Shown here: piece by piece, positions 755 to 32,565 of the stretch
How the letters are laid out: each line of letters opens with the position of its first letter
Numbering within the stretch: the stretch's first letter is position 1
Assembly: GCA_015295945.1 (NCBI GenBank)
Contig: DVED01000163.1
Span: 1 to 46,749 of the forward strand
DNA length: 46,749 nt
From: Oscillatoriales cyanobacterium M59_W2019_021
GTDB lineage: Bacteria > Cyanobacteriota > Cyanobacteriia > Cyanobacteriales > Geitlerinemataceae
Reading direction: 5' to 3'
Notes under the pieces: generated by a model
What the model saw: the letters and a program-made list of their open reading frames with translations, nothing else
Told to the model about the DNA's origin: nothing
Database searches by the model: none
Made by a program: the position numbers and the translations under genes

Positions 755-3160
755 ATTTGATCGTTTCTTGACGATTCATTTTGGAGTAAGTCCTTTGCTC
801 GTTCTATTTTCTGCAACGCTTTTTTTGAGCGCCTTTTTACTATTGGGGGTGCAACTGATGGTGGCAAAAATGATTCTTCCTATTTTGGGAGGGTCGCCAT
901 CAGTTTGGAATACCTGTATGTTTTTCTTTCAAGCAACTTTATTGCTAGGATACGGTTATGCTCATCTGGCAACTCGTTGGTGGGGGGTTCGCCGTCATGC
1001 AATTTTTCATAGTATTTTGCTCTTCATTCCCCTCGCTTTTTACCGATCGCATTTCAGAAAACTGAAGTAGGGAGCGAAATAGCTCATCCCATTTTATCAG
1101 TGTTAGCGTGGTTAACTCTTGGGGTAAGCGTTCCTTTTTTCGTGGTGTCAACGAGTGCGCCTTTAGTGCAAAAATGGTTTGCTCAAACGCCACATCCCGA
1201 TCGAGACGATCCGTATTTTTTGTATGCTGCGAGTAACTTTGGCAGTTTATTAGGTGTTCTCAGTTACCCACTGGTTATCGAACCTAGTTTTTCTTTAGAT
1301 CGGCAAAGTTTTCTGTGGATGATCGCTTATGGATTGCTCGTAATTGTAACGATCGGATGTGCGACTTTTATTGGGAAATTGGGAGGCGATCGAGAGCAGG
1401 CTATAACTTTGGCACGATCTCACGAAGACTTCCCAGAAACTTTTTTAACGCCTCCCATAACCCAACAAAAAATTCAATGGGTTTTCCTATCATTTTTACC
1501 GTCTAGCTTGATGCTAGGCGTCACTACTTATATTACCACGGATATTGCGTCAATTCCACTCCTGTGGGCAGTTCCGTTAGCGATTTATTTATTAAGTTTT
1601 GTTCTGACGTTTTCTCGAAAATCTTTCCAATTAAATCGCACTTTAATTAGCATTTCTCCTTTATTTTTTTCCGGGACGATCGCCTTAGAAAACATTAAAA
1701 TACTCTTACCCGTAGGCATTTTATTATTCGCTCACTGGGGAAGTTTATTTCTAGCCAGTTGCGTCTTGCATGGCGAATTAGCGAAAAGTCGTCCGCATCC
1801 CGAGTATTTAACGGAATTTTACTTCTGGATTTCGCTGGGGGGAGTTTTAGGTGGATTATTTAATTCGATTGTCGCACCTTGGATATTTCCCAGGCTTGTG
1901 GAATACCCGCTCATTATCGGACTCGTATTGCTTTTGCTGCGCGATCCCTGGCAAGAAGATCGATCGTCTAAGCCAGAAATTGAAAACTTAGAGGCACTAA
2001 ATCGAGAAGTTAAACAAGCCAAAATTGAAAATCCAGATCTCGATGTTTCCGAATGGGTTTCCGCCAATGTTTTGTCTCACTATTCATCTCGAAATAGACC
2101 TAGAAAACGGACTCTTTTTTCACTCACTTTGCCGATCTCTTTGGGGGTGCTAATCGGCAATTTTTTCCTGGGGTTTCAACTGAATTTAGGCAATAGCAGT
2201 TTTATCGCTTGGCTCTTCACACTTGGTTTATTTGGCGCGATCGGTTATGCGTTTTCTCTCTATCCTTGGCGATGGCTGGTTGGTTTTATTTTTGTTATTT
2301 TGCTGAATCAATTTGCCTTACCGACGAGTCAGGTTATATACAGCGATCGCAATTTTTTCGGCGTGAATCAGGTTTTATACAATGCGACCGAAAACTATCA
2401 TGCATTCGTTCACGGGACAACGCTACATGGCAAGCAAAGTCTCGATCCTCAACGCCAAAACGAACCGCTCACGTATTTTACAAAAACTGGACCGATCGGA
2501 CAACTGTTTCAGTCTTTAGAGACAGAACCCAGAATCTCTCGTATCGGTGTGATAGGATTGGGGGTGGGAACGTTAGCAGCTTATGCCAAACCCGGACAAA
2601 CTTGGAGGTTTTATGAAATCGATCCGGCTGTGGAAAAAATTGCCTCCGATCCGCAATATTTTACGTTTTTACAGAATGCTAAAGGCGAGGTGAACATCGT
2701 TTTAGGTGACGGTCGATTGTCGATCGCTAAAGTTCCAAATAACTCCTACGATTTGCTGGTGATGGATGCTTTTAGTTCCGATTCCATTCCCGTTCATTTA
2801 GTGACTCGAGAGGCGATCAATCTGTATTTACAAAAGTTATCTCCTCAAGGTTTACTGGCACTCAATATTACCAACCGCTACCTCGATCTTCAACCGGTTA
2901 TCGGTGCATTAGCTCGCGATCGCAATTTAGTGACACTAACCCAATGGGATAAAATCGTATCAGTAGAAGAACGCCAACTTGGAAAAACACCCTCTCATTG
3001 GGTTATTTTAGCTCGCGATCGTCGCGATTTTGGTAATCTCGCGAACGATCCCAGATGGAAACCCATTGCTAATGAGAGTTCGATTTCGGTTTGGACGGAT
3101 AATTTTTCCAATCTATTTCGATCTCTGCGAATTTTTAAAACTCGATATAGCGGTTTGTAA
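720..3160 (+). pseudogene. Membrane-fused spermidine synthase-like protein, frameshifted
   Basis: Two reading frames together make one protein of about 810 residues of the membrane/aminopropyltransferase fusion family. The first part (720-1070) holds transmembrane helices with the segment VAKMILPILGGSPSVWNTC. The second part (from codons upstream of 1100 to 3160) continues with more helices and then a spermidine-synthase-like Rossmann domain, with IGVIGLGVGTLAAY, FYEIDPAVE and LVMDAFSSDSIP. The switch falls at the five-T run 1037-1041. One extra T would join ...IPLAF to LPIAFQKTEVG... and on to LAWLTLGVSVPF without a stop. It may be a real lesion, a read error or a slippery site. The true start may be the TTG at 795, which has GGAG eight bases upstream and removes the overlap with the Uma2 gene. 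Confidence 0.8.
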
Positions 3161-3187
3161 TCCACTAGATAAATATAGTTAGATATT

Positions 3188-3212
3188 GGGGCAACCACGG
3201 GGGGATTGCCCC
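3188..3212. terminator. Inverted repeat between convergent genes
   Basis: GGGGCAA (3188-3194) pairs with TTGCCCC (3206-3212) around an 11-base loop, and CTAC follows. It sits between the rightward synthase-like gene (stop at 3160) and the leftward DUF4079 gene (stop at 3323). A transcription-end role is inferred; there is no clean T-tract. The GGGGCAATCC..GTTGCCCC form resembles dispersed cyanobacterial palindromes. Confidence 0.4.
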
Positions 3213-3322
3213 TACAAATCTATCGAAAGATTTACAACTCATTTAGGATGGCTATAGATTGATAATAGCTCTATTTCTTTTTCTAATTTTTTTCTCCGCA
3301 AAGCCTTTGATAAACTTCGCAT

Positions 3323-4033
3323 TCAGCGAGACTGGAAAAATTTGAAGTTAGGACAAATTTGTTGAGTCCAATCGCATTGTTCTAAATAAGGAGATTGCCA
3401 GGATAGAGGCTTATCTAGCAAGTCTCGCACTCCAGTCACCCCTTGAAGACAAAACAAGAATAATGCAAAACAATTTAAAATGATATGAATTTTTCTCCAT
3501 TTATTTGATCGATCTTCGTATATTTTAGGTTTGATCGTTAAGGCAATAACCATTAATATAGAAACAAGGATTCCCGAGTAGTAGTGGGAGATATACCATT
3601 GTTCCGTTCTCCAAAAAACGCCTTCTTGCGACCCCAAAATAATCAATCCCGCACTCGTCATCGCTGCCAGGATGCCTCGCCAAATATACCTTCGTGACTG
3701 ATATAAACAAATCAGCGAGCCGATTGTCGCGACAAACATTAATACAATAACAACGATCGAACTAATTTCTTTTTGAAAGAGTTCGCCTTTAAAAATAATC
3801 GAATAAGCTAAGGCGATCGAGGTTAATCCGACGACCGAACCTGTCAAATAATGACCGAATTTGACGTGTTCGCGATTGACAACGGGAGGAATGAGGCTTT
3901 TACCTCCTGCTGAAGTTTCTAGCCGACGCTGGCGAGTTTGCCACGCCATATTCACGACCATTCCCAAGATGGGAAAAACGAGAATCACGGCAAGTGCGGG
4001 GTGAACTAATCCTAACAGGTCTTTTGCATCCAT
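3323..4033 (-). CDS. DUF4079 domain integral membrane protein
   Basis: The 236-residue product begins MDAKDLLGLVHPALAVILVFP, the usual start of cyanobacterial DUF4079 proteins. It alternates hydrophobic helices with short loops (about six membrane segments). The layout recalls b-type-cytochrome-like four- to six-helix proteins, with several His residues such as those in LVHPAL, EHVKFGHYLTG and WYISHYYSG. Haem binding has not been shown for this family as far as I know, so function is left open. The gene stands alone on the minus strand, convergent with the frameshifted synthase gene. A weak GAAAGAGTTGAGAA leader precedes the ATG at 4033. Confidence 0.8.
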   Translation of the reverse strand: MDAKDLLGLVHPALAVILVFPILGMVVNMAWQTRQRRLETSAGGKSLIPPVVNREHVKFGHYLTGSVVGLTSIALAYSIIFKGELFQKEISSIVVIVLMFVATIGSLICLYQSRRYIWRGILAAMTSAGLIILGSQEGVFWRTEQWYISHYYSGILVSILMVIALTIKPKIYEDRSNKWRKIHIILNCFALFLFCLQGVTGVRDLLDKPLSWQSPYLEQCDWTQQICPNFKFFQSR

Positions 4034-28495: not shown

Positions 28496-28759
28496 TCAGA
28501 CGCAGGACGAAGCCGTTTCCCGAACTTCCAATCGCTCGTCGAGCAGACCGTTCATCTTGTCCACTGCCGATCGAATTTGTTGCAGGTAACGGGTCGAACC
28601 GACTTCTTTGCCAAAAGCCCTTTGGGTTTCGAGCAATTCGACCGACATTAAAATCGTATTGAGGGACGTGCGGAACTCATAGGACATTTCTGTTAAGTTC
28701 GCTTCGCAACTCGTGAGGAGTTGAGGGGAGTTTTGGGTGGCTAAACTTGGGTGTTTCAT
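28496..28759 (-). CDS. Stand-alone HisKA-like protein lacking the phospho-His
   Basis: The 87-residue protein has MSYEFRTSLNTILMSVELLE (about residues 25-44), then RYLQQIRSAVDKMNGLLDE. This matches the dimerisation/phospho-acceptor helices of cyanobacterial histidine kinases (SHEFRTPLxTILxSxELLE...LxRIQSAVxxMxxLLE). The phosphorylated His is Tyr (codon TAT) and the following conserved Pro is Ser. No ATPase domain follows: the frame stops after RETASSCV. A GAGAGTGAG leader before the ATG at 28759 and an open start suggest it could still be expressed. It is either a decayed kinase remnant or a small decoy that dimerises with kinases. There is no obvious partner nearby. Confidence 0.65.
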   Translation of the reverse strand: MKHPSLATQNSPQLLTSCEANLTEMSYEFRTSLNTILMSVELLETQRAFGKEVGSTRYLQQIRSAVDKMNGLLDERLEVRETASSCV

Positions 28760-29370: not shown

Positions 29371-30204
29371 TCAATCGCGGTTTTCCATGACGCCGACGAG
29401 AGATTGCAGGTCGAAATCGCGATCGCGTCCGCTGAGGCAGATGCCGGAACTGATAACAGTCAGGTCATTTTTGGCGATCGCGCTGGTATGTCGATCGCCC
29501 TCTGCTGTCGTCCACTCCACCATCCAGTATTCGCCGCGATCTTGGAATTGCTGGAGTTCGCCGCCACCAACTTGCAAGGCGTCTTTCAAACGCCGTCCGT
29601 CGCGATGGAAGGGGGAAAATCCCTCGGTTTGTTGGGAAACTAAATCGTAAGCGACCCGCATTTCTGGGGTGATGCCGGGGAAACGCAACGCTTCGATCTC
29701 CGTTAGTTGCGTGAGTTGCGCCTTCAAGAGATCGGCAACTTCGGGATCGGCACGGCGATCGATTTGGTCAAACCACCACGCCTGTCCGTCAAATCGCGCG
29801 GCGATGACTTCAAACGCACTTCCTTCCGTTACCAAATGTACGGGAATCGGTCGAACCCCGCCAGAGATGCGCTGCCGCACGTCTGCCTCGCTGACGGGAT
29901 ACGCTAACCACGTTTGACCCCGCAGGCGATAGGCTAACCGCAGGCGAAATCGGGGAAAGCGTTCCAGATACTCCGCCACTTGGAAAACATCCGCTTCTTC
30001 CACCAACGCGGCAATACGAGCGGTTTGCACTTGGAAAATGCCCCACCCTTCAAACTGGCGAGGTTGCGGCGCAAAGGTACAAACCATCCCCCCCACGCGG
30101 GTGCGAACTCGTCCCCCCTTGACGCAAGGCGCGAGGAACTGAGTCGATCGCAACTGTTGTTCCTCTCGCGCCAATTGTTCCAGTAGTTTGCCGATGTTAG
30201 TCAT
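29371..30204 (-). CDS. Conserved hypothetical cyanobacterial protein (277 aa)
   Basis: No named domain is recognised. The protein starts MTNIGKLLEQLAREEQQLRS. It has LAPCVKGGRVRTRVGGMVCTF, FEGWGIFQV, RFRLRLAYRLRGQTWLAYP and WWFDQIDRRADP, and a C-terminal VGVMENRD. It is Trp- and Arg-rich, soluble, without membrane helix or signal. The orderly mix of conserved-looking aromatic motifs argues for a real gene shared among cyanobacteria. It lies 110 bp downstream of the EF-G-like fragment on the same strand, and the gap includes tandem TTAGTGG heptamers. Its function is not known. Confidence 0.7.
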   Translation of the reverse strand: MTNIGKLLEQLAREEQQLRSTQFLAPCVKGGRVRTRVGGMVCTFAPQPRQFEGWGIFQVQTARIAALVEEADVFQVAEYLERFPRFRLRLAYRLRGQTWLAYPVSEADVRQRISGGVRPIPVHLVTEGSAFEVIAARFDGQAWWFDQIDRRADPEVADLLKAQLTQLTEIEALRFPGITPEMRVAYDLVSQQTEGFSPFHRDGRRLKDALQVGGGELQQFQDRGEYWMVEWTTAEGDRHTSAIAKNDLTVISSGICLSGRDRDFDLQSLVGVMENRD

Positions 30205-30314: not shown

Positions 30315-30890
30315 CTAGTTCCGGATGGGTTGATAGTGGCTGAAAGTCATGGAGAATTGTCCTTGACCGGAACAGAGGGTTCGCAAGGTGGTGGCATAAC
30401 CGAACATGGCGGCAAGGGGGACTCGTGCGGTCATCACAGCTCGATCGCCGTCAAATTCGAGACGATCGATCGCCCCTCGCCTCGCCATCAAATCGCCCTG
30501 TACTACACCAATACAGTCGATCGGCACTTCAAGATTCACTTGCATCACGGGTTCGATAACGATCGGATCGGCGGTTGCCATGCCTTGATAAAATCCCTGG
30601 CAGGCGGCAAACCGAAACGCGCGATCGTTGGAATCGACGGGATGGGAAGCACCCCCTTCCAGCACCACTTTGACGCCGATAACGGGATAGCCTGCCAAAA
30701 TCCCCGTTTGGGTGGCATCGCGAAATCCCCGTTCGCACGCTTTAATAAACGCTGGCGGAATCGCACCCCCGACAACGCGATTTTCAAAGGCAAACACGTC
30801 GTCGTAGGGTTCGATCCGACCGATAACACGAGCGTATTGACCCGGACCGCCACTTTGTTTTCTCAGGGTGTAATCGAATTTGCCGTTCAT
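30315..30890 (-). CDS. Free-standing EF-G domain IV-V protein
   Basis: The 191-residue product matches only the C-terminal part of elongation factor G. The domain IV start is GKFDYTLRKQSGGPGQYARV (E. coli: KQSGGRGQYG), then FENRVVGGAIPPAFIKACERG, LAGYPVIGVKVVLEGGASHP and VDSND at the domain IV tip. Domain V follows with IEPVMQVNLEVP, GDLMARRGAID, MFGYATTLRTL and FSMTFSHYQP. The GTPase and domains II-III are absent, and nothing similar lies upstream. CTGGAGG sits before the ATG and a TACAAT -10-like box is near 30941-30946, so it is likely expressed as it stands. It may mimic the tRNA-like half of EF-G, or be a relic of an EF-G paralogue. Confidence 0.85.
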   Translation of the reverse strand: MNGKFDYTLRKQSGGPGQYARVIGRIEPYDDVFAFENRVVGGAIPPAFIKACERGFRDATQTGILAGYPVIGVKVVLEGGASHPVDSNDRAFRFAACQGFYQGMATADPIVIEPVMQVNLEVPIDCIGVVQGDLMARRGAIDRLEFDGDRAVMTARVPLAAMFGYATTLRTLCSGQGQFSMTFSHYQPIRN

Positions 30891-30937
30891 ATCGATCGCC
30901 TCCAGCCGATCCGCTTTTTCTCAAACATCTCTATATT

Positions 30938-30948
30938 GTAGCATAAAT
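30938..30948 (-). promoter_or_regulatory. Possible -10 box for the EF-G-like gene
   Basis: Read leftward, GCTACAATATAGAG contains TACAAT about 50 bp before the ATG at 30890. No clear -35 is visible. Confidence 0.35.
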
Positions 30949-31287
30949 ACTACAAGTTGATCGCGGAGTCATTGAGATGTTCGTCCTCATTGCGTCCCCC
31001 TGGCATTTGCCTGCAAACCCCGAGAGCGGGAGTCATTTATAGGGAATGCTTTTCACAATTGCTCCGTTCGCGAAGCGTCTCCAAAGGAGAATTGCTCGTC
31101 AAGTGTCAACGAAAAATCAAGGGTTCTGCTCCCCCGGCTTCCCCTGCCTCCCCTGCCCCATTTCACCCAGAATCTAAAAAACATACCCTTGTAAGGATCG
31201 GGGGTCGGGGAGAAAAACCCGATCGCGGACGCCTGACAACGGGATAGACTGATGAGATGAATTGTTAATGATTGTCGAGAGTATCCC
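30949..31287. other. Gene-free region with palindromic repeat
   Basis: It contains a CGTTCGCGAAGCGTCTCC..GGAG element (31065-31089), which in reverse orientation is a diverged relative of the 29-bp repeat found in two genes. A C-rich tract, CCCCTGCCTCCCCTGCCCC, is near 31143-31161. The LpxB-like gene starts at the right edge. Confidence 0.5.
31065..31089 (-). repeat. Diverged intergenic copy of the CTCC..GGAG..CGCT..CGCGA repeat
   Basis: In reverse complement it reads CTCC-TTT-GGAG-A-CGCT-T-CGCGA-A-CG. The two genic copies read CTCC-AAC-GGAG-T-CGCT-A-CGCGA-T-CG: the fixed blocks agree and only spacers differ. It is bounded by CAATT/AATTG, so it is palindromic overall. Confidence 0.75.
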
Positions 31288-32565
31288 TTGAAGCTACTTT
31301 GCCTGAGTAACGGTCACGGAGAAGATCGAATTGCTGCGAGCATTTTGCGGGAACTTCAGCGCCATCCCGACTGTCCGCAACTGGCGGCACTGCCGTTGGT
31401 GGGGGAAGGACTGGCGTATACCCAACTGCCGGACGTGACGCTTCTCGGTCCGGTGCGGAAAATGCCGTCAGGAGGATTTGTCTATATGGACGGACGGCAA
31501 TTTTGGCGGGACGTACGCGGCGGACTCATCCAACTGACCCTGGCTCAACTCGGCGCGGTGAAACGGTGGGCAAAGGGTGGCGGTAAAATCTTAGCGGTGG
31601 GCGATATTTTACCGTTGCTGATGGCTTGGTGGAGCGGTGGGAATTATAGCTTTGTGGGAACGGCAAAGTCGGAATACTACTTACGCGACGAAGCGGGTTG
31701 GTTGTACCGCCGCAAAAAAGCCGATCGACTCGAACGCTGGTCGGGTTCGGTCTATTTACCTTGGGAACGGATGCTGATGCACAGTCGGCGGTGTCAAGCC
31801 GTCTTCGCTCGCGATACCCTGACGGCAGAGGTTTTGCAAAAGTTTCGGATTCCCGCCCTGGATTTGGGCAATCCGATGATGGACGAATTGGGATTAGAAT
31901 TATCGTCAACGGGATACTACAACCCCGATGCCAATCGCCGGGGATCGCGGCGGGTGATGACCGTGCTGTTGTTACCGGGATCGCGATCGCCAGAAGCCTA
32001 TGCCAATTGGGAACAGATCGGACTGGCGATGGTCTCCGTCCGCGAAGCCTTTGCCGATCGCCCCATCCTCTTTCTTGCCGCCATTTCGCCGGGATTGGAC
32101 TTGGAAACTTTAACCGACGATTTAGCGCGGTACGGGTGGCGACGCCACGCCCATCGCCCGATCCTGACTAGCGATCCCAAGGCAGAGTGTTTCTCTTTGC
32201 TCAATTCTCGGTTAGTCTTATCCCAGGATGGTTTCGGGGAATGCTTGCGCCGCGCTGATTTTGCATTAGCGATGGCGGGGACGGCAACGGAGCAATTCGT
32301 GGGATTGGGCAAACCGGCGATCGCCTTTCCCGGTGGGGGACCTCAATATACCGCCGCTTTTGCCGAAGCCCAAAGCCGCCTTCTCGGTTGCTCTCTCATT
32401 CTAGTCGATCGTCCCGAAAAAGCCGCCGAACCCATTCAGACTTTATTGCGCGATCCCGATCGCTTACAATCGATCGCGGAAAACGGTCGCCGCCGCCTCG
32501 GCAAACCCGGAGCCTCCCGCCGCATCGCCGATTCTTTAATGAAGAGGCTAGTCGCAAGTGGGTAG
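31288..32565 (+). CDS. LpxB-related lipid-A-disaccharide synthase-like glycosyltransferase
   Basis: The 425-residue protein matches the cyanobacterial/plastid lipid-A-disaccharide synthase-related family (GT19/GT-B fold). It starts MKLLCLSNGHGEDRIAASIL, has AVGDILPLLMAWWSG and FVGTAKSEYYLRD, and the C-terminal GT-B donor site region ADFALAMAGTATEQFVGLGKPAIAFPGGGPQY. Cyanobacteria generally lack classical lipid A, so a different glycolipid or polymer substrate is likely. The start is TTG at 31288 (KLLCLSNGHGED follows at once); an ATG at 31268 is out of frame. It is followed by purL on the same strand after 246 bp of repeat-rich DNA. Confidence 0.88.
   Translation: MKLLCLSNGHGEDRIAASILRELQRHPDCPQLAALPLVGEGLAYTQLPDVTLLGPVRKMPSGGFVYMDGRQFWRDVRGGLIQLTLAQLGAVKRWAKGGGKILAVGDILPLLMAWWSGGNYSFVGTAKSEYYLRDEAGWLYRRKKADRLERWSGSVYLPWERMLMHSRRCQAVFARDTLTAEVLQKFRIPALDLGNPMMDELGLELSSTGYYNPDANRRGSRRVMTVLLLPGSRSPEAYANWEQIGLAMVSVREAFADRPILFLAAISPGLDLETLTDDLARYGWRRHAHRPILTSDPKAECFSLLNSRLVLSQDGFGECLRRADFALAMAGTATEQFVGLGKPAIAFPGGGPQYTAAFAEAQSRLLGCSLILVDRPEKAAEPIQTLLRDPDRLQSIAENGRRRLGKPGASRRIADSLMKRLVASG

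Follow-up and report, generated by a model that had tools for sequence, protein, structure and literature searches.

Can domains IV and V of the elongation factor EF-G exist as a gene of their own and, if so, what might the product do? The question arises from an ORF in a contig of 46,749 bases, hereafter called the window, which was analysed over its whole length. The ORF runs from ATG to TAG over 191 codons on the minus strand. Pfam recognizes two domains in its product, EFG_IV over residues 4-107 (E 1.5e-31, with the profile entered at position 14 of 121) and EFG_C over residues 111-190 (E 4.2e-24); at a limit of E 0.001 it finds no other domain, GTPase domain I included. The gene and its parts are as follows.

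30315..30890, minus strand: free-standing EF-G domain IV-V protein of 191 aa (ORF, Pfam, tree grouping with three other free forms)
30567..30890, minus strand: domain IV part, residues 1-108 (Pfam, conservation count)
30318..30566, minus strand: domain V part, residues 109-191 (Pfam, conservation count)
30642..30644, minus strand: codon of His83 (opposite the tip His of this genome's main EF-G in the alignment; the same residue in all four free proteins)

An AF2 model built from 20 sequences (mean pLDDT 88.9, pTM 0.67) and a Foldseek search agree with Pfam on the presence of both domains: the best 50 of 1857 Foldseek rows are all EF-G or EF-G-like entries, 1wdt named among them. What the model shows is a predicted EF-G IV-V fold, not a function. 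A sequence-only reading of this DNA had described a separate gene limited to domains IV and V, devoid of every GTPase element but with the VDS tip loop and the MFGYATTLRTL segment kept, and this description holds. Both the tip loop SHPVDSND and the segment MFGYATTLRTL are retained in the 191-aa protein, and His83 occupies what we take to be the position of E. coli His583 and T. thermophilus His573, a residue presumed to be important in EF-G. When the 477-aa N-terminus of a full-length paralogue was used to look for a remnant of domains I-III in the whole window, only chance matches were returned (best E 4.5); the same query gave nothing better than E 0.68, again chance matches, around the other three free genes presented below. 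Since the gene lies in the middle of the contig, it is not truncated by a contig end. EFG_IV has three matches in the genome, in frames of 697 aa (EF-G), 720 aa (EF-G-like) and 201 aa (the free gene).

Two overlapping samples of 388 genomes each, one from the order and one from the class, were searched at an E limit of 1e-54, which covers at most 677 genomes overall. The sequence-only reading had staked itself on free-standing forms occurring elsewhere, and proteins with EFG_IV and EFG_C only were indeed found in three genomes besides that of the window: G105 in the order sample (59% identical, stop-to-stop frame of 242 aa), and G553 (65%, 231 aa) and G530 (62%, 255 aa) in the class sample. 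These genomes belong to two families other than that of the window. Free domain IV-V genes thus form a rare family, present in four of at most 677 genomes; no additional free form was detected in the family of G105 (14 genomes) or in the family of G553, whose 42 genomes are also those of its order, and the top matches in the 58 relatives searched are full-length EF-Gs. As there is one match above the limit in each of the four genomes, none was seen to harbour the free and the full-length form of this paralogue together.

Several other short EF-G frames were set aside. The one of G042 results from frame breaks within a main-type EF-G, that of G026 from an EF-G-like gene with a transposase-like ORF within it (L121, G026:C10), and that of G353 from a contig end. 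Those of G294 belong to a broken full-length copy, in which the paralogue is spread over two overlapping frames with its middle part missing (L125 4592-6002); an assembly fault is possible there. Among the titles and abstract openings that literature searches returned, none describes a free-standing EF-G domain IV-V protein; the tRNA-array paper (NAR 2021, gkab661) could mention one. EF-G lacking its G domain has been studied in vitro.

To which EF-G do the free forms relate? Our tree comprised 70 rows, namely 4 free forms, 54 full-length paralogues (the partial one of G353 and the broken one of G294 included), 11 main EF-Gs and 1 EF-G-like protein, without spdEFG1 reference rows. The free forms group with a rare third, full-length paralogue, apart from the main EF-G. 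For one such full-length relative, that of G004, the best match among solved structures is mitochondrial EF-G1 (1.8e-198; T. thermophilus EF-G reaches 6.6e-193), a small margin. The window protein and those of G553 and G530 form a clade with support of 100/99, and all four free forms share a branch (98/91) that is found in 100% of 200 bootstrap trees. Long branches, that of the window row included, were flagged by the tree tool, and two further trees were therefore built. Omission of the EF-G-like row leaves the four free forms with support of 94/68; when six long full-length rows are removed as well, the value is 95/77, with 96% of bootstrap trees in either case. The three-member clade is unchanged in both rebuilt trees, in which long branches, again including the window row, are still flagged. 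Placement of the window protein with the full-length protein of G004, a member of its own family, is rejected (p-AU 0.00017), as is its placement with the full-length group (p-AU 0.00017); the corresponding placement of G105 is not rejected (p-AU 0.061). Together, the supports and p-AU tests make a single origin firm for the sequences of the window, G553 and G530, and likely for all four.

A phage or plasmid source was also considered and discarded. Two scans of viral contigs yielded no relative, the best 20 of 28 phage records are all below 60% identity, and so are the best 20 of 321 plasmid records. A scan of genome contigs collected 45 loci of spirochaete and Clostridia type with at most 47% identity.

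The free form is under purifying selection, as judged from the comparison of G553 with G530, both of them free, where pS is 0.75 (saturated) and pN 0.14. We next considered the 76 positions whose conservation across the 54 full-length paralogue rows reaches 90% or more; 41 of these positions are in domain IV and 35 in domain V. The window protein keeps 41/41 in domain IV and 24/35 in domain V. Taken together, the four free forms keep 36/41 and 18/35, respectively (Fisher p 0.0008). Tested singly, the rows of the window, G553 and G530 are significant and that of G105 is not (p 0.13); as the rows are related, these p values are guides only. Controls drawn from the six longest, diverged full-length rows behave in the opposite manner, with a smaller share kept in domain IV than in domain V in 15 of 15 overlapping quartets and in five of the six single rows, the sixth (G061) leaning like the free forms. 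At the level of aligned sequences, constraint is thus shown to be asymmetric in the free forms, with domain IV kept and domain V relaxed. We infer that the relaxation of domain V reflects lost contacts with domains I-III. Among the kept positions are H83, D86, S87, Q12, G14, G15 and G17, which we take to be the EF-G tip that faces the A site.

The region preceding the gene contains the following elements.

30899..30903, minus strand: Shine-Dalgarno sequence GGAGG, 8 nt before the ATG (read from the sequence)
30935..30940, minus strand: possible -10 hexamer TACAAT (read from the sequence)
30937..30954, minus strand: candidate TrcR operator TGTAGTATTTATGCTACA, made of an exact TGTAGTAT at 30947-30954 and an inverted half-site with one mismatch

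The gene therefore has its own Shine-Dalgarno sequence, as had been claimed. Of the proposed -10 box the hexamer itself is present, but a consensus scan at the free gene returned no sigma-70-type pair. The 8-mer TGTAGTAT, 56 nt 5' of the ATG, is a published one. In Anabaena, the regulator TrcR is reported to bind an 8-bp site near -10 boxes, with this very sequence at the trn promoter, and to act as a repressor of rtcB, rsgA, the trn operon with its 26 tRNAs and further genes, an effect lifted by inhibitors of elongation; the context of TrcR is described as restricted to cyanobacteria (PMC10272220). Together with the alr0857-family genes presented below, this context suggests that the host genomes are cyanobacterial. 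Two copies of TGTAGTAT are found in the window for 0.26 expected, the second (31914-31921) inside a neighbouring gene. An 18-base operator pattern was searched as well; since it was written from the window's own site, the published 8-mer is the only independent pattern. By its site, the free gene would be repressed by TrcR and induced under stress.

Are such sites a feature of the whole paralogue? We scanned the 150 nt before 52 full-length paralogues (30 nt only for one of them), with starts set by a script rule. The exact 8-mer is present upstream of 22 and absent upstream of 30, with a mean of 0.26 and a maximum of 2 in shuffled sequences. With up to one mismatch allowed it precedes 36 of the 52 (shuffle mean 7.61), and pairs of sites 8-12 nt apart precede 24 (shuffle mean 0.03). 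Because of these paired sites, the full-length, spdEFG1-like EF-G may itself be stress-induced, as far as promoter sequences can tell. Tandem TrcR-type sites before it can be seen for example in L119, L120, L129, L130 and L150.

In the window's own genome, TGTAGTAT occurs 60 times, i.e. only 1.5-fold more often than the reversed control (39 copies). Among all 60 copies, a script detected nine places at which another half-site, with one mismatch or none, accompanies the 8-mer, a count of pairs without a genome-wide control:

divergent promoter with a trcR candidate on one side and HNH/alr0857-family genes on the other: paired site
rtcB (Pfam 1.4e-127): paired site
another HNH gene: paired site
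L227 (G000:C1), 1190-3893: triple TGTAGTAT site ahead of a small unit that codes for tRNA-Leu(taa), tRNA-Tyr(gta) and a vWA protein
the free EF-G IV-V gene: paired site
near a transposase-like ORF (by eye): paired site
L242 1575 (G000:C197:97174): leucyl-tRNA-synthetase-like ORF (by eye), with the paired site some 109 nt ahead of it
near an ORF of doubtful status: paired site
L233 1902 (G000:C155:4401): tandem TGTAGTAT/TGTAGCAT and a TTGACA box

The trcR candidate is an ORF that looks like the RHH type by eye and adjoins HNH and alr0857_fam genes; Pfam gave no match for it, RHH included. Its assignment is based on this gene context and on matches to phages, all nine records being Nodularia phages, with both phages named in PMC10272220 among them, over residues 76-129 only. 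On a Kovacikia plasmid, a TrcR-like gene is likewise preceded by TGTAGTAT sites, and the 24 kb examined around it contain no tRNA and no EF-G piece. The L227 unit is likely a mini stress tRNA array, and its vWA protein is 71% identical to one encoded near the free EF-G gene of G530. A relationship of the vWA protein to Ro60/TROVE was considered and is unsupported (PDB profile match E 1.3, poor AF2 model with pLDDT 62.8). At L233 a tRNA is lacking, and so is any ORF of 60 aa in the adjacent 160 nt; the site there perhaps controls a stress-regulated RNA.

The genetic environments of the free genes differ between the genomes. In the window, the next gene downstream is the following.

29371..30204, minus strand: 277-aa gene, same strand as the free gene; its homologue L148:16815-17693 of the G530 cluster has 53% identity to it

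Its product has no Pfam, NCBIfam or PDB match. The window shares only the operator and this gene with the clusters of the relatives. ARAGORN detected 0 tRNAs in the 46,749 bases of the contig and Rfam no tRNA around the gene, degenerate ones included, so the window gene does not stand at a tRNA array. Also in the window, an 87-aa ORF (28496-28759, minus strand) with a HisKA domain only (E 7.1e-7) is perhaps the remnant of a histidine kinase. In G553, the free gene is preceded by 31 tRNA genes and followed by one; in G530, 30 precede it and one follows 4 kb downstream. Paired TrcR-type sites stand before both arrays, which are also preceded by HNH and alr0857-family genes (HNH identified by Pfam in G530 and by eye in G553), and PolyA_pol-head genes are found downstream of the free gene in both genomes. 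The G553 contig ends soon after them. In G530 the downstream region also codes for two RlaP, a vWA-type protein, the homologue of the window's 277-aa protein, ThiF and KptA. The order in G105 is a tandem site 8 kb upstream of the free gene, three ARAGORN tRNA genes 6-7 kb upstream (a fourth by Rfam), two copies of the vWA-type protein and the free gene.

We propose, with a probability of roughly 0.55, that the gene codes for a conserved, GTPase-free offshoot of EF-G, cut down to domains IV and V, which belongs to the TrcR regulon, is induced by stress and acts in the A site. Its ancestor would be an EF-G of the spdEFG1/mitochondrial EF-G1 type, which most likely underwent this reduction a single time. 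As part of a TrcR regulon for translational stress, the free gene would be silent in healthy cells and switched on when translation elongation is blocked, the condition to which the operator and the neighbours point. Domain IV, with its conserved residues kept, would then move, without hydrolysing GTP, into the A site of ribosomes that are stalled or damaged; the parts of EF-G that touch the A site are presumably among those that the free form retains. There it might cover the site, dislodge a bound drug or a ligand that has become stuck, or keep the ribosome on hold until the supply is restored by spare tRNAs and RNA ligase. Protection against antibiotics or stalling, one of the roles put forward in the sequence-only reading, gains in plausibility from the TrcR-type site, the tRNA arrays and RNA-repair-type genes of the relatives and the constraint kept in domain IV; ribosome binding and a protective effect of the free protein themselves are what we would expect from these features.

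Other explanations start from the same features. The protein could be a decoy or regulator, a mimic of domains IV and V that soaks up a toxin, a modifying enzyme or an EF-G-binding protein and does not act on the ribosome. The conserved domain IV positions would fit this as well, and FusB-type proteins, which bind EF-G, are known (PMC4725979, PMC3352095), so such a surface can serve as a docking site. However, no FusB-like or EF-G-targeting family was detected among the scanned neighbours, several of which have no family at all, and the kept tip residues listed above face the A site in EF-G; we therefore regard a decoy as unlikely. It is somewhat less probable still that domain IV, as a mimic of the anticodon arm, binds enzymes that handle or cut tRNAs away from the ribosome, as part of a repair kit or as a decoy for an anticodon nuclease. 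The arrays of 31 and 30 tRNA genes before the free genes of G553 and G530, the PolyA_pol-head genes that follow in both, the RlaP and KptA genes of G530 and the paired site of the same type at the rtcB of the window's genome speak for such a role. Nevertheless, co-location does not prove contact; no tRNA lies near the window copy, and the few of G105 are 6-7 kb away.

That the gene is a functionless, decaying remnant of the full-length paralogue appears very improbable to us, since there are four intact free forms, three of them firmly in one clade, synonymous sites are saturated at a pN of 0.14 between two free forms, and the window protein keeps the complete set of domain IV positions. Decay of this paralogue may be seen in G294, if no assembly fault is involved, and simulated neutral change at half the G553-G530 divergence left the frame intact in 267 of 5000 runs. 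Finally, a gene that begins exactly at domain IV recalls one half of a split EF-G, partnered by a separately encoded GTPase half. Yet the seven strong GTP_EFTU matches in the genome leave none unaccounted for, as their frame sizes fit EF-G, EF-Tu, LepA, TypA, RF3, IF2 and the EF-G-like protein, all known full-length factors, and no N-terminal half is present around any of the four free genes, which makes this arrangement hardly credible.

If the free protein is the stress-induced A-site factor that we favour, its significance goes beyond a single gene. EF-G is usually seen as a motor in which the tip does no work unless the GTPase drives it; with a tip-only protein that is selected and linked to stress, whether domains IV and V are useful on ribosomes by themselves becomes testable. 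The data also suggest that the cell's response to translation damage is a wider one, in which inducible tRNA arrays are a single component. More tentatively, and we would not yet bet on it, the translation-emergency kits of cyanobacteria (tRNA arrays, RtcB, KptA, RlaP and TrcR-type sites) might include a GTP-free, A-site-directed EF-G end that protects, clears or pauses drug-blocked ribosomes, which would constitute a new class of ribosome factor.

Among known systems, the closest in regulation is the TrcR regulon of Anabaena PCC 7120 with its trn tRNA operon (PMC10272220). The free gene has the 8-bp promoter sequence in common with it and is tied to tRNA arrays in the relatives, and the window's genome possesses a TrcR candidate with HNH and alr0857-family genes and an rtcB with a paired site. 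In contrast, the regulon as presented in that article contains no EF-G-derived gene, and its main text has 0 occurrences of either 'EF-G' or 'elongation factor'. By presumed descent, the comparison is with EF-Gs of the spdEFG1/mtEFG1 type, of which spdEFG1 is reported in Cyanothece and Nostoc (PMC4342817). This lineage is characterized by a three-residue insertion in switch I (PMC3150367), a segment absent from the window protein. Domains IV and V are common to both; unlike spdEFG1/mtEFG1, the free form has no domains I-III and so cannot hydrolyse GTP, and its domain V constraint is changed. The ribosomal protection proteins Tet(M) and Tet(O) extend their domain IV to the A site region of the drug-blocked ribosome. 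Unlike the free form these are full-length GTPases, and the weak tet_protect score of the window protein (55.5 bits for a cut-off of 775) does not place it in the Tet type. Lastly, the FusB-type fusidic acid resistance proteins are small and help ribosomes blocked by EF-G, as described in PMC4725979 and PMC3352095; they bind EF-G and are not built of its domains, whereas the free form consists of two of them.
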